DNA from: Gemmobacter aquaticus
Lineage (GTDB): Bacteria > Pseudomonadota > Alphaproteobacteria > Rhodobacterales > Rhodobacteraceae
NCBI RefSeq assembly: GCF_007859075.1
Contig: NZ_VOAK01000011.1
Span: 930,001-994,000 of the forward strand
DNA length: 64,000 nucleotides
Direction: 5' to 3'
A program made the position numbers and the translations under genes. The notes below the pieces were generated by a model. The model saw only the letters and a program-made list of their open reading frames with translations. It was not told the origin of the DNA and did not search any database. Numbering within the stretch: position 1 is the first letter of the stretch; each line of letters opens with the position of its first letter. Positions 31,379 to 49,207 of the stretch are shown one piece after another.

Positions 31379-32641
31379 ATGCGTCGCGTAGTTGTCACGG
31401 GTCTGGGCATGGTCACTCCGCTGGCATGTGGGGTGGAGGAAACCTGGAGCCGCCTGATCGCCGGCCAGTCGGGGGCAGGGCCGATCACACGCTTTGACAC
31501 CACCAATGTCGTGACGAAGTACGCCTGCGAGATCCCGTTTGGCGACGGCAGCGACGGTACCTTCAACCCGGATGACTGGATGGAGGCAAAAGAGCGCCGC
31601 AAGGTCGACGACTTCATCCTCTACGGGATGGCCGCAGCGGTGCAGGCCGTGAAGGACGCGGGCTGGGAGCCCGAGGACGAGGAAAGCCGCCTGCGCACCG
31701 GTGTCATGATCGGTTCGGGCATCGGCGGGTTGTCCACGATTGCCGAGACGGCGGTTCTGATCAAGGAAAAGGGCCCCAAGCGGGTTTCGCCCTTCTTCAT
31801 TCCCGGCTCACTCATCAACCTGGTCTCGGGTCAGGTCAGCATCCGCTTTGGCTTCAAGGGGCCGAACCATGCGGTTGTGACGGCCTGTTCGACTGGTGCG
31901 CATGCGATTGGCGATGCGGCGCGGTTGATCATGCTGGGCGATGCGGATGTGATGGTTGCAGGTGGCGCAGAGGCCCCGATCAGCGAGATCGGCATTGCGG
32001 GCTTCAATGCCTGCAAGGCGCTGTCCACCAAGCGCGCGGACGAGCCGCAGAAGGCCAGCCGCCCCTATGACAATGACCGCGATGGTTTCGTGATGGGCGA
32101 GGGCGCCGGGATTGTCGTGCTGGAGGAATACGAACACGCCAAGGCGCGCGGTGCGAAGATCTATGCCGAGGTACTGGGGTATGGCCTGTCGGGCGACGCC
32201 TATCACATTACTGCTCCATCCGAGGATGGCGACGGGGGCTATCGCAGCATGCAGGCCGCTTTGAAGCGCGCAGGTATCACGCCCGATCAGGTGGATTACA
32301 TCAACGCGCATGGCACCTCGACGATGGCGGACACGATCGAGCTTGGCGCGGTCGAGCGTCTGATGGGGGATGCGGCAGCCAAGGCGACCATGTCCTCCAC
32401 CAAGTCGAGCATCGGCCACCTGCTGGGTGCGGCTGGCGCGGTTGAGGCGATCTTCTGCGTTCTGGCAATTCGCGATCAGGTGGCGCCGCCCACGATCAAC
32501 CTTGATAATCCGGCAATCGAGCCGAAGCTCGATCTGGCCCCGAACAAGGCCGTGAAGCGCAAGATCGACGTGGCGCTGTCGAATTCGTTTGGCTTCGGGG
32601 GCACCAACGCAAGCCTTGTTCTTGGCAAGGTGCGCGGCTGA
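31379..32641 (+). CDS. fabF: 3-oxoacyl-ACP synthase II
   Basis: Condensing enzyme of fatty-acid elongation. The 420 residues contain the nucleophile Cys170 in VVTACSTGAHAIGDA and the two active-site histidines in NAHGTSTMADTIE and SSIGHLLGAAGA. Length is normal. GGAAGG precedes the ATG. Its stop shares one base with the mltG start (TGATG). Confidence 0.97.
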   Translation: MRRVVVTGLGMVTPLACGVEETWSRLIAGQSGAGPITRFDTTNVVTKYACEIPFGDGSDGTFNPDDWMEAKERRKVDDFILYGMAAAVQAVKDAGWEPEDEESRLRTGVMIGSGIGGLSTIAETAVLIKEKGPKRVSPFFIPGSLINLVSGQVSIRFGFKGPNHAVVTACSTGAHAIGDAARLIMLGDADVMVAGGAEAPISEIGIAGFNACKALSTKRADEPQKASRPYDNDRDGFVMGEGAGIVVLEEYEHAKARGAKIYAEVLGYGLSGDAYHITAPSEDGDGGYRSMQAALKRAGITPDQVDYINAHGTSTMADTIELGAVERLMGDAAAKATMSSTKSSIGHLLGAAGAVEAIFCVLAIRDQVAPPTINLDNPAIEPKLDLAPNKAVKRKIDVALSNSFGFGGTNASLVLGKVRG

Positions 32642-33819
32642 TGTGGCGCTCGGTCGCCTCGAACGCGTTGACGCTGTTCATCGTGCTGCTGATTGCTGCC
32701 GCCGGGCTGCTGGCATGGGGGCGTCATCAGTACTCGGGCCCCGGACCTTTGTCGGCGGCCGTTTGCGTCAAGGTGGATCGGGGCGCTACGCTCAGTCAGG
32801 TTAGCCAGAACCTTGCCGCGAAGGGCGCGATCTCGGACGCCCGCATATTCCGCATCGGTGCGGATTATTCAGGCAAGGCCAAGGGGCTGAAATATGGGTC
32901 TTACCTTGTGCCTGCAGGCGCATCGATGGCCGAGATCGTCGATCTGCTGACGGCAGGCGGCGCCTCGACCTGCGGACGTGAGGTGAACTATCGCATTGGT
33001 GTTGCCAAGGCAGAGATCGTTTTGCGCGAGACCGATCCGGCGACCAACTCGCTGGTCGAAGTGGTGAAGTTCGATCCGGCCGGAGAGGTGCCTGCTGTCT
33101 ATACCGAGGCGAAAGAGGCTGGCGATCTGCGCTGGCAGATTACCTTGGCCGAGGGCGTGACAAGCTGGCAGGTGGTCAATGCGCTGAAGCAGGCGGACTT
33201 CCTGTCAGGCGAGGTTGCCGAGGTGCCCGCAGAGGGCAGTCTTGCGCCTGACGCCTACGATGTGGATGCCAACGAGGATCGCGGCTCGCTGCTGGCCAAG
33301 ATGCAAGCCAAGCAGAAGGCGATCATCGAAGAGTTGTGGCCGCTGCGCGCTGAAGGTCTGCCCTATGACACGCCGGAAGAGGCGATGGTCATGGCATCCA
33401 TTGTCGAGAAGGAAACCGGCATTGCGGCGGAGCGCCCGATGGTGGCGAGCGTCTTCGTCAACCGGTTGCGCGAGGGGATGAAGCTGCAAACCGACCCGAC
33501 GGTGATCTATGGCATCACCAAGGGCGAGGGTGTGCTGGGACGCGGTCTGCGCGCCAGTGAACTGCGTCGCGCGACGCCCTACAACACCTATCTGATCGAG
33601 GGCCTGCCACCCGGGCCGATTGCGAACCCGGGCCGGCTGTCGATCGAGGCGACATTGCATCCTGCGTCGAGCGATTACCTCTACTTCGTTGCGGATGGCA
33701 CGGGCGGGCACGTCTTTGCCAAGACGCTTGCCGAGCACAACCAGAATGTTGCGAAGTGGCGAGAGATAGAGGCGCAGCAGCGCGAACAGCAAAACGCCCC
33801 TGAAGGCGGCGGGAACTGA
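32641..33819 (+). CDS. mltG: Endolytic murein transglycosylase MltG
   Basis: A 392-residue inner-membrane enzyme that cuts nascent glycan strands and sets peptidoglycan chain length. One N-terminal helix (about residues 8-26) anchors it; the YceG domain shows VMASIVEKETGIAAERPMVA with the catalytic Glu, then FVNRLREGMKLQTDPTVIYG and the closing YLYFVADGTGGHVFAKTLAEHN. The acpP-fabF-mltG order is usual in this group. It ends 230 bases before GTA g1. Confidence 0.96.
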   Translation: MWRSVASNALTLFIVLLIAAAGLLAWGRHQYSGPGPLSAAVCVKVDRGATLSQVSQNLAAKGAISDARIFRIGADYSGKAKGLKYGSYLVPAGASMAEIVDLLTAGGASTCGREVNYRIGVAKAEIVLRETDPATNSLVEVVKFDPAGEVPAVYTEAKEAGDLRWQITLAEGVTSWQVVNALKQADFLSGEVAEVPAEGSLAPDAYDVDANEDRGSLLAKMQAKQKAIIEELWPLRAEGLPYDTPEEAMVMASIVEKETGIAAERPMVASVFVNRLREGMKLQTDPTVIYGITKGEGVLGRGLRASELRRATPYNTYLIEGLPPGPIANPGRLSIEATLHPASSDYLYFVADGTGGHVFAKTLAEHNQNVAKWREIEAQQREQQNAPEGGGN

Positions 33820-33824
33820 GATAC

Positions 33825-33843
33825 GGGGGGCCACTGGCCCCCC
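33825..33843 (+). terminator. Hairpin just after mltG
   Basis: GGGGGGCC (33825-33832) and GGCCCCCC (33836-33843) form a perfect 8-bp stem with a 3-base loop, 5 bases after the mltG stop. No T-run follows. It probably defines the 3' end of the fabF-mltG message. Confidence 0.6.
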
Positions 33844-33889
33844 GATCCGTTTCTGGGTGTTGCGCGGACTGTCTTTGTGCGTTCGTTCT

Positions 33890-33945
33890 GTTAGTATATT
33901 GAAAATAATAAACTATTTGACTTTTGGCATCGCTGCGTGTAGTGG
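33890..33945 (+). promoter_or_regulatory. AT-rich candidate GTA promoter region
   Basis: A conspicuous AT-rich patch in otherwise GC-rich DNA, with TATATT (33895-33900), AATAATAAACTATT and TTGACT (33917-33922). No single -35/-10 pair is convincing: TTGACT would need a poor -10 such as TAGTGG at 33940-33945. RcGTA transcription in R. capsulatus depends on the activator GafA, so a weak core promoter would be expected. This is the only promoter-like stretch between mltG and g1. Confidence 0.4.
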
Positions 33946-33970
33946 TGGGCCATGCTAGAAGAAAATGATG

Positions 33971-34010
33971 AGCGACGGACCCAGGGGGCACCTGGGACCG
34001 TCGCTTTTTT
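33971..34010 (+). terminator. Strong intrinsic terminator or attenuator in the GTA leader
   Basis: AGCGACGGACCCAGG (33971-33985) pairs with CCTGGGACCGTCGCT (33991-34005) over 14 of 15 positions with one A-A mismatch and a 5-base loop, followed by six Ts (34005-34010). It ends 38 bases before the chosen g1 start. A 44-codon open frame (ATG at 33952, stop at 34084) runs through it, and the long in-frame version of g1 (ATG at 33965) would also cover it. Confidence 0.85.
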
Positions 34011-34048
34011 CGTTTCACTCGTGCGGAGGCATGAGAGGCAGCAACGGG

Positions 34049-34378
34049 ATGGGAATGAAACCGCAAGGTGGGGACGACGGGCCTGAGGCTTTGCTGAAGG
34101 CGTCTGAGGAACTTTACAGGGATGTGGCTCTGGAACTGGCCGCGGCAACGGAACGGCTGCGGCAAGGAGACTTGGGAGAGGTCAAGGCCGCTGTGCAGGC
34201 GGCAAAGGACCTTCGTGTCGCATTCCAGTTGGTGATGGATGAAAGGACCAGAGTTGACAAACTCCGCAAACAGGTTGCCGGGGCTGGCGGCGGCGCCGGA
34301 GAGTTGGACTTCGCCGCAGCCCGGGCTGAGATCGGGCGCCGCCTGGCTTGCCTGCGCGCCGCAGGACCAGGTGGATGA
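34049..34378 (+). CDS. g1: GTA small terminase subunit (g1)
   Basis: A 109-residue helical protein (GPEALLKASEELYRDVALELAAATERL, here described by position 13-39, then a Lys/Arg-rich helix near 55-75). In RcGTA g1 encodes the small terminase that hands host DNA to the large terminase without sequence specificity. Start choice is uncertain: 34049 has GAGAGG about 10 bases upstream; 34031 has GGAGG too close; 34055 is also in frame; 33965 would place a terminator hairpin inside the gene. Its end overlaps g2. Confidence 0.75.
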   Translation: MGMKPQGGDDGPEALLKASEELYRDVALELAAATERLRQGDLGEVKAAVQAAKDLRVAFQLVMDERTRVDKLRKQVAGAGGGAGELDFAAARAEIGRRLACLRAAGPGG

Positions 34379-35669
34379 GTTTCTGGCCTCGCTGAGCAAT
34401 GAGGCGCTGCTGGCGCTGCCGTGGCTGTTCGAGTTTTGGGCGCTGCCGCATCAGTTGCCGCCCGATGGCGCTTGGCGGAGCTGGGTCATCATGGGTGGTC
34501 GGGGTGCTGGCAAGACGCGTGCCGGTGCAGAATGGGTGCGGACACAAGTTGAGGGCGCGCGGCCGGGGAATCCCGGTCGCGCCGGGCGGGTGGCGCTGGT
34601 CGGGGAAACCATCGATCAGGTGCGTGAGGTGATGATCTTCGGCGAAAGCGGGATCCTCGCCTGTTCACCCCCTGACCGCCGCCCGGTGTGGGAGGCGACC
34701 CGGAAGCGTCTGGTCTGGCCCAATGGTGCCGTGGCGCAGGTGTTTTCCGCGCACGAACCCGAAAGCCTGCGTGGTCCGCAGTTCGATGCGGCCTGGGTCG
34801 ATGAGTTGGCGAAATGGAAGAAGGCCGAGGAAACCTGGGACCAGTTGCAGTTCGCGCTGCGTCTGGGACCAAACCCGCAGCAGGTTGTGACGACAACGCC
34901 GCGGAATGTCGCGGTGCTGAAGGCTATTCTGAACAACCCCTCGACCGTGGTGACCCATGCCCCGACCGATGCCAACCGGGCGCATCTGGCGGCCTCGTTC
35001 CTTGAAGAGGTGAAGGCGCGCTATGGCGGCACGCGGCTTGGGCTGCAGGAACTGGATGGAGCGCTGCTGGAGGATGCTGAAGGCGCGCTTTGGACCAGCG
35101 CTATGCTTGAGCGCGGGCGGGTCGACGAAGTGCCAACGCTCAGTCGCATCGTGGTGGCGGTTGATCCTCCGGTCACGGGGCATGCCGGGTCGGATGAATG
35201 CGGAATCGTTGTCGTTGGCGCGGTGACGGATGGACCGGTGCAGGATTGGCGGGCCTATGTGCTTGAAGATGCGAGCGTGCAGGGCACCTCGCCTGATGGC
35301 TGGGCCCGCGCCGCAATAGAGGCGATGCAGCGCCATGGCGCCGACCGGCTGGTGGCCGAAGTCAATCAGGGCGGCGATCTGGTGCAGGCGGTGATCCGTC
35401 AGGTCGATCCGCTGGTGAGCTTCAAGGCGGTGCGTGCCAGTCGCGGCAAGTCCGCGCGGGCAGAGCCGGTGGCGGCGCTGTACGAGCAGGGCCGGGTGCA
35501 TCATCTGCGCGGGATGGGACGGCTTGAGGACCAGATGTGCCGGATGACGGCGCTTGGCTATGAAGGGCGTGGCTCGCCCGACCGGGTGGATGCGCTGGTC
35601 TGGGCGCTGACTGCGCTGATGGTGGACCCGGCACAAGCCGTGCAGCGTCCGCAGGTACGGCGGCTGTAG
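34371..35669 (+). CDS. g2: GTA large terminase subunit (g2)
   Basis: The packaging motor and nuclease. With a GTG start at 34371 it has 432 residues: Walker A GGRGAGKTRAG near residue 41, Walker B AAWVDELAKW, a coupling motif TTTPRN, and RNase H-like nuclease acidic residues in VVAVDPPVTG, AEVNQGGD and DRVDALVWAL. The open frame extends back to an ATG at 34239, but that would overlap g1 by 140 bases and adds a low-quality N-terminus; AGGA lies 4 bases before the GTG, and an 8-base overlap with g1 fits coupling. Confidence 0.93.
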   Translation: MDEFLASLSNEALLALPWLFEFWALPHQLPPDGAWRSWVIMGGRGAGKTRAGAEWVRTQVEGARPGNPGRAGRVALVGETIDQVREVMIFGESGILACSPPDRRPVWEATRKRLVWPNGAVAQVFSAHEPESLRGPQFDAAWVDELAKWKKAEETWDQLQFALRLGPNPQQVVTTTPRNVAVLKAILNNPSTVVTHAPTDANRAHLAASFLEEVKARYGGTRLGLQELDGALLEDAEGALWTSAMLERGRVDEVPTLSRIVVAVDPPVTGHAGSDECGIVVVGAVTDGPVQDWRAYVLEDASVQGTSPDGWARAAIEAMQRHGADRLVAEVNQGGDLVQAVIRQVDPLVSFKAVRASRGKSARAEPVAALYEQGRVHHLRGMGRLEDQMCRMTALGYEGRGSPDRVDALVWALTALMVDPAQAVQRPQVRRL

Positions 35670-49147: not shown

Positions 49148-49162
49148 CCTAACAGACAAACA

Positions 49163-49192
49163 AAAAAGCCCCGGAGTTTCCTCCGGGGCTTT
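49163..49192. terminator. Bidirectional intrinsic terminator between cysE and pdhC
   Basis: GCCCCGGAG (49168-49176) and CTCCGGGGC (49181-49189) pair around a short loop, with AAAAAA on the left and TTCTGTTGTT on the right. On the minus strand it ends the pdh operon (T6 tract); on the plus strand it would end cysE, the small gene and any GTA read-through. Confidence 0.88.
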
Positions 49193-49207
49193 CTGTTGTT
49201 GCGCCGT

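Follow-up and report, generated by a model that had tools for sequence, protein, structure and literature searches.

By what mechanism GafA activates the archetypal gene transfer agent (GTA) is not settled, and the leader of a GTA cluster in Gemmobacter aquaticus puts this question in a concrete form. In the window (the whole stretch of DNA analysed, 64,000 nucleotides) the gap between mltG and g1 measures 229 bases, and it holds both a promoter and, downstream of it, a hairpin of the terminator type. What does such a hairpin do in this place, and what could carry RNA polymerase past it? A first-pass annotation had suggested that the hairpin may be opened either by ribosomes translating a short leader frame or by an antiterminator.

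A terminator-type hairpin between promoter and g1

The leader and its surroundings comprise the following features, with the supporting evidence in brackets.

32641-33819, plus strand: mltG (YceG-like), upstream neighbour of the GTA cluster (Pfam YceG, 269.4 bits)
33825-33843, plus strand: GC hairpin of 8 bp directly 3' of mltG, without a T run (sequence)
33917-33922, plus strand: TTGACT, -35-like, GTA promoter (in 95/100 hairpin-chosen loci TTGAC precedes the hairpin by 20-90 nt)
33923-33939, plus strand: spacer of 17 nt, TTTGGCATCGCTGCGTG (43-row alignment A2; the position matches the published putative GafZ element of Caulobacter)
33940-33945, plus strand: TAGTGG, -10-like (alignment A2, sequence)
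33951-33969, plus strand: conserved initial transcribed sequence (ITS) CATGCTAGAAGA.., with the probable start at A33952 (GCT[AG]G near the hairpin in 88/100 hairpin-chosen loci)
33970-34010, plus strand: intrinsic terminator, hairpin and six T (-29.1 kcal/mol; covariation; model R1, 51.5 bits)
34018-34035, plus strand: second stem-loop CTCGTGC-GGAG-GCATGAG before g1, weaker support (exact CTCGTGCGG in 49/143 family loci)
34033-34038, plus strand: GAGAGG, likely ribosome-binding site of g1 (sequence; by eye in many relatives)
34049-34378, plus strand: g1, in the small-terminase position (tblastn matches upstream of g2 in relatives)
34239-35669, plus strand: g2, terminase large subunit (Pfam Terminase_6N and 6C)
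49151-49197, plus strand: T-tailed hairpin towards the end of the GTA cluster, probably terminating it (-25.3 kcal/mol)

The leader hairpin (33970-34006) is built from the left arm AGCGACGG-A-CCCAGG (33971-33985), the loop GGGCA and the right arm CCTGGG-A-CCGTCGCT (33991-34005); 14 of its 15 pairs are Watson-Crick pairs and one is an A.A mismatch. Directly behind this GC-rich stem follows a run of six T (34005-34010), 38 bases upstream of ATG 34049, which is the make-up of an intrinsic terminator; stem, tail and distance as given in the first-pass annotation are read directly in the sequence. Within 33.7-49.4 kb, a scan of the plus strand ranked the hairpin as the most stable T-tailed one, the runner-up being that at 49151-49197. 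The 166 nt from 33890 to 34055, which include a probably untranscribed part of the promoter, fold at -63.2 kcal/mol (z -5.07; 0/200 shuffles were equally stable).

Upstream, the AT-rich patch described earlier as promoter-like does contain TTGACT at 33917 and, after 17 bp, TAGTGG at 33940, although a simple promoter and terminator scan called no sigma70-like site. The same scan did not list the hairpin at 33970 either, and the number of terminators that it called on the two strands of 32.5-36.0 kb was unremarkable (5 versus 2.5 +/- 2.1 in shuffles). The hairpin noticed behind mltG is present, but it has no T run and is thus not a canonical intrinsic terminator. What stands between the promoter and g1 is the strong terminator-type hairpin at 33970, and transcripts from that promoter must pass it, as had been proposed.

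The product of g1 gave no hit in a Pfam search. Besides ATG 34049, a further ATG frame (33965-34378) runs across the hairpin in frame with g1. By eye, relatives show a layout of GAGAGGC followed by ATG, which makes ATG 34049 the likelier g1 start. The in-frame upstream ATG lets ORF callers place the start before the hairpin, and annotated g1 starts may therefore be wrong.

Conservation across Rhodobacteraceae

The hairpin is conserved in the family. A search for g2 was successful in 11/11 genomes of the same genus and in 135/150 genomes of the family. After removal of a duplicate (L001), a C-terminal fragment (L012) and a row whose contig begins too close to g2 (G066), 143 loci were compared, i.e. 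the own genome, 9 of the same genus and 133 of the family. Taking the best hairpin in the 240 nt searched, a T-tailed hairpin with an energy of -15 or lower was found at 119/143 loci; the controls gave 34/143 (antisense strand), 14/140 (DNA further upstream) and 110/715 (dinucleotide shuffles). When only one narrow box relative to g2 was considered, the figures were 100/143 versus 3/143 (antisense), 2/140 (upstream) and 50/715 (shuffled). The value of 100/143 is a lower limit, with a single best hairpin scored per locus; in R. capsulatus, for instance, the leader hairpin ranked below one located upstream of the promoter.

A covariance model (R1) was built to span the promoter, the ITS, the hairpin and the T run. 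It reached at least 30 bits in 60/84 and 42/59 loci, hence in 102/143, and 63 of those 102 were outside the model. In the own genome, whose leader is itself part of the model, the leader scored 51.5 bits and the next place 18.6. R1 was further applied to a set of named loci, namely the best 80 of 191 from a scan with the R. capsulatus portal protein, a set that is rich in Paracoccus and partly identical to genomes of the family set. Here, 79/80 were matched, on the plus strand and with 64.4-101.8 bits; four of these loci are part of the model, and the single miss among these best 80 of 191 was Gemmobacter serpentinus (L223). The cruder box for the single best hairpin captured 38 of the same best 80 of 191, owing to the greater distance to g2 in Paracoccus and to other hairpins that outscored the leader one. 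Both R. capsulatus genomes, DSM 1710 and SP108, possess the leader hairpin and the T run, and the two R. capsulatus loci scored 81.2 (L146) and 82.1 bits (L147).

The first-pass annotation had counted absence of the hairpin from close relatives as evidence against its proposal, and such exceptions do exist in part: at 3/10 loci of the same genus (L004, L007, L009) the hairpin is weakened or tail-less, with R1 scores of 21.4 bits in L004 and 13.4 in L007, while L009 still gave 35.2 bits. Family-wide, 35/143 loci lacked both an R1 match of at least 30 bits and a boxed hairpin. Of these, 30 also failed the expression for promoter and ITS, and 20 had no TTGAC in the stretch searched, compared with 5 of the other 108 loci. 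By eye, among 23 of these 35, a promoter-like stretch was still visible in L004, L007, L061, L113 and L126. Four of five loci with internal stops in g2 (L020, L083, L087, L138, L141) were without a 30-bit R1 match, which is suggestive, though the number is small.

As an observation on g2 itself, in eight loci (L090, L091, L093, L094, L141, L142, L144, L145) the match ends at about residue 190 inside frames of 831-878 codons, which look like inteins inserted in the terminase.

Coupling to the promoter and the initial transcribed sequence

Hairpin, promoter and initial sequence occur together. Of 100 loci selected solely for hairpin and position, 95 had TTGAC at a distance of 20-90 nt before the hairpin, and 5 had it in a control window 130-200 nt upstream. 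Likewise, 88 of these loci had GCT[AG]G in the stretch reaching from 40 nt upstream of the hairpin to 6 nt inside it, and 5/100 had it in the control window. Motif and hairpin coincided at 88 loci, the motif was alone at 11, the hairpin alone at 12 and neither was present at 32 (Fisher p 4e-13, uncorrected for phylogeny).

This arrangement has to be weighed against the view that the terminator is a passive insulator, which mops up leaky or read-through transcription, while GafA only boosts initiation and strong initiation outruns incomplete termination. The recruitment model involving GafA and omega, as published in the main text of PMC9638019, speaks for it, and at 32/98 loci with the promoter motif a further T-tailed hairpin (energy -12 or better) lies within 150 nt before the promoter. 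An insulator, however, belongs upstream of the promoter, whereas the leader hairpin lies downstream of it at near-fixed spacing, the T run starting 44-54 nt past the start of the ITS in 61/62 leaders. Moreover, GafZ reads through terminators in Caulobacter, according to passages of PMC11150451. Altogether, we consider the insulator unlikely.

In alignment A2 the spacer between -35 and -10 carries a near-invariant CG-NN-CG, which by its position is a candidate site for the GafA C-domain. The spacer of the window keeps this element partly; it does not fit the motif pattern, and a search of the own genome with that pattern returned nothing.

Between the -10 element and the hairpin, the window (33951-33969) reads CATGCTAGAAGAAAATGAT. 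A sigma-dependent pause via a -10-like ITS was considered and dropped, the consensus TGGAAG having, by eye, a G at the key second position. The conservation of the ITS beside the hairpin might also indicate that the terminated leader acts as a small RNA that pairs with targets through its conserved 5' stretch. Equal conservation is, however, expected for promoter-proximal DNA or polymerase signals, and no Rfam family matched at cut-off in 33500-34500, where one hit on the opposite strand scored 18.3 bits versus a cut-off of 45. A functional small RNA is accordingly a very improbable explanation.

Covariation of the stem

The two arms of the stem covary. Alignment A1 consisted of 72 leaders below 80% identity out of 177, and these 177 of 223 had been picked by the promoter/ITS expression and not by the hairpin, because of which parts of TTGA and C..G.T[AG] appear conserved in A1. 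The arm test was carried out on the 62 of these 72 diverse leaders that have a run of four or more T; the 10 without such a run were left out. In 47/62 leaders the own arms paired at 8/8 positions, compared with 24.2% for arms combined across species, and the mean of 7.69 pairs in the 62 leaders exceeded all of 300 re-deals (mean 6.74, maximum 7.00). The minimum free energy gave z < -2 in 59/62 leaders.

A second alignment, A2, was made from 43 of 61 candidate leaders picked by hand for alignability, so that its pair counts lean to the consensus stem; the arm test is independent of that choice. In its 43 rows, 87.9% of the cells were paired and two-sided changes occurred in 9/11 pairs, which was reached by 0/500 shuffles; sliding the structure by 1 to 3 columns left at most 69.0% paired cells. 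RNAalifold on the raw 72-row MAFFT alignment yielded only 6 pairs at -0.75 kcal/mol, because stems of differing length were misaligned. Conservation and covariation in relatives, the check proposed together with the original observation, have thus come out in favour of the hairpin (100/143 loci in the box, 102/143 with R1, 47/62 in the arm test).

The T run also bears on the idea that the hairpin is a 5' stabiliser of the mRNA and no terminator. The second stem-loop, weakly supported and placed after the hairpin, would suit such a function, but a stabiliser needs no T run and a run of four or more T is kept in 62/72 diverse leaders; we regard this role as very improbable. The second stem-loop itself was rejected as an equally conserved element, since its folding support is weak: the 50 nt past the T run had a mean z of -0.85, with z < -2 in 8/62 leaders. 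By eye, a stem at this position (loop GGAG) is seemingly kept with other letters in some relatives.

A short leader whose open frame is not conserved

In classical attenuation, a leader peptide or an RNA switch would open the hairpin. An open frame of 44 codons starting at 33952 indeed crosses the hairpin in the window, and it had been suggested that ribosomes translating it could open the structure. This suggestion did not hold in relatives. The start codon is absent in 32/72 diverse leaders, 22 of which have AAG in its place. Among the 40 frames that could start, 14 meet a stop within 14 codons, and no reading frame is clearly preferred by the T run (28, 18 and 16 of 62 leaders). With only 40/72 leaders start-capable, there is no conserved translated leader frame, and leader-peptide attenuation was rejected. 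Furthermore, the start and the hairpin would be only about 18 nt apart, a tight fit for an aptamer, a rival stem or a coupled ribosome, so that attenuation in the classical sense is hardly credible. Little room and an unconserved frame together point either to a factor carried by the polymerase from the promoter or to no regulation at all.

Distribution outside the family

In 32 GafA-bearing genomes of other families, 25 of which have g2, R1 was not found near g2. Weak matches were obtained in 2/32 of them (24.3 and 22.4 bits); in one genome the match was on a different contig from g2 (G205), and the other was without a g2 hit (G262). Hairpins before g2 were not above controls in these families (5/21 loci, antisense 8/21, shuffles 7/63), the 21 loci being 29 minus 8 fragments or second pieces. 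Nor was there an excess in one such family, f11 (8/30, antisense 10/30, shuffles 23/150); here 59 genomes were searched, 44 had g2, and the 30 loci with the best scores were used. As far as tested, the leader terminator is a feature of Rhodobacteraceae and does not extend to GTAs in general.

Three genomes of f11 (G284, G365, G434) showed a similar layout with unrelated sequence; an independent replication was rejected, as the hairpin is no commoner than controls either in the 21 loci of several families or in the 30 of f11. Sporadically in f11 (L248, L267, L278), a GTA promoter TTGACAT.GT.ACGC..GGTTAGAGA precedes a short leader and then a T-tailed hairpin, which lies about 40 nt upstream of the first gene.

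GafA as the possible opener of the leader

The own genome encodes a GafA-like protein of 284 aa with DUF6456 (PF20057, 196 bits), and the domain was detected in 137/150 family genomes and in 1/14 control genomes (Caulobacter vibrioides). A regulator of an anti-terminator family is thus present, and in the layout a predicted terminator separates the promoter from the bulk of the operon, both of which are expected of an anti-termination operon.

In R. capsulatus, counted relative to ATGGACATG, TTGAC is at -129, the -10 element at -106, the probable start at -94 and the hairpin from -76, with the T run ending at -45. According to passages of Fogg 2019 (PMC6363796), GafA binds one of five probes in EMSAs. 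The bound probe covers 76-125 upstream of g1 and includes the predicted -10 element and an RNA-seq-supported start. This probe (-125 to -76) ends about where the terminator begins (-76); the overlap amounts to six if the start codon of the paper is the ATG six bases on. Passages of Sherlock and Fogg 2022 (PMC9638019) place GafA-C at the RcGTA promoter with the N-domain on either side; R. capsulatus GafA is published there as an activator, and an interaction with the omega subunit is favoured. The words terminator and hairpin are absent from the main text of PMC6363796 and PMC9638019, and the region is described as promoter. No earlier description of the leader terminator was found in the titles, abstract openings and main-text passages covered, and an earlier mention elsewhere is possible.

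For Caulobacter, passages of Tran and Le 2024 (PMC11150451) present evidence that GafZ works from a putative element located between -10 and -35, travels with polymerase and NusA/E/G, and passes terGTA as well as E. coli rrnB T1. The authors also suggest that R. capsulatus GafA might possess an unrecognised anti-termination activity, and anti-termination in the Bartonella GTA has been published, to judge by the title of a paper in a reference list. The antiterminator option of the first-pass annotation fits the CcGTA work so described. GafA shares DUF6456 with a Caulobacter protein, and the homologue GafZ is a published anti-terminator; by analogy, GafA itself may anti-terminate. A terminator in the leader is predicted by this idea, whereas the recruitment model does not need one.

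We think that the leader is probably a transcriptional gate of the phage-late type, composed of promoter, conserved initial sequence and terminator, with GafA as the opener. RNA polymerase would start at about A33952 and, some 18 nt further on, enter the strong intrinsic terminator, which would stop most polymerases in vivo and release an RNA of about 59 nt (about 50 nt in R. capsulatus). GafA, which binds over the -10/start region in R. capsulatus, would stay with the polymerase or modify it, and the GafA-loaded polymerase would read past the hairpin into g1 and the remainder of the cluster of about 15 kb. More tentatively, and with rather more doubt than belief, the idea may be extended to an RcGTA-type on/off decision made at elongation in many Rhodobacteraceae. 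In that case the promoter would fire in many or most cells, giving a terminated RNA of 50-60 nt, and GafA, as a fused activator and Q-like anti-terminator, would pass polymerase in the few producer cells.

The conserved and covarying terminator between the GafA-bound promoter and g1 offers a physical target for the suggestion of Tran and Le. If the gate exists, GTA particles would be switched on by polymerase running through a stop, beyond transcription start alone. RcGTA promoter constructs with and without the leader would then measure different things, and GTA control in Rhodobacteraceae and Caulobacter would be tied to one phage-like principle.

Comparison with known systems

In late control of the lambda type, the layout comprises pR', Q and tR', and the terminator yields a short RNA unless the regulator has been loaded. 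The GTA leader resembles it in having a promoter, a putative regulator site within that promoter and a terminator downstream. No sequence relation is claimed; unlike in lambda, the terminator distance is much shorter in the window, and a sigma-dependent pause element is unsupported by the ITS consensus TGGAAG. Q and its binding element are mentioned in passages of Tran and Le (PMC11150451).

The RcGTA promoter of R. capsulatus has the same leader as the window; the hairpin and T run were seen in DSM 1710 and SP108, which are not the strains of the papers.

CcGTA of Caulobacter crescentus (GafY/GafZ, terGTA), as described in passages of PMC11150451, is likewise a GTA of this kind: its regulator carries DUF6456, a putative element for the regulator is placed between -10 and -35, and a promoter-close terminator has to be passed for cluster expression. 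Its tested terminator, unlike the one studied here, consists of three 150-bp GC-rich repeats after the first gene (start codon +251). In contrast, the window has one short hairpin about 18 nt past the probable start and before g1, a difference in position that counts against the proposed gate. Where Caulobacter employs GafY and GafZ, the regulator of Rhodobacteraceae is a single GafA, a putative anti-terminator whose ends resemble these two proteins.
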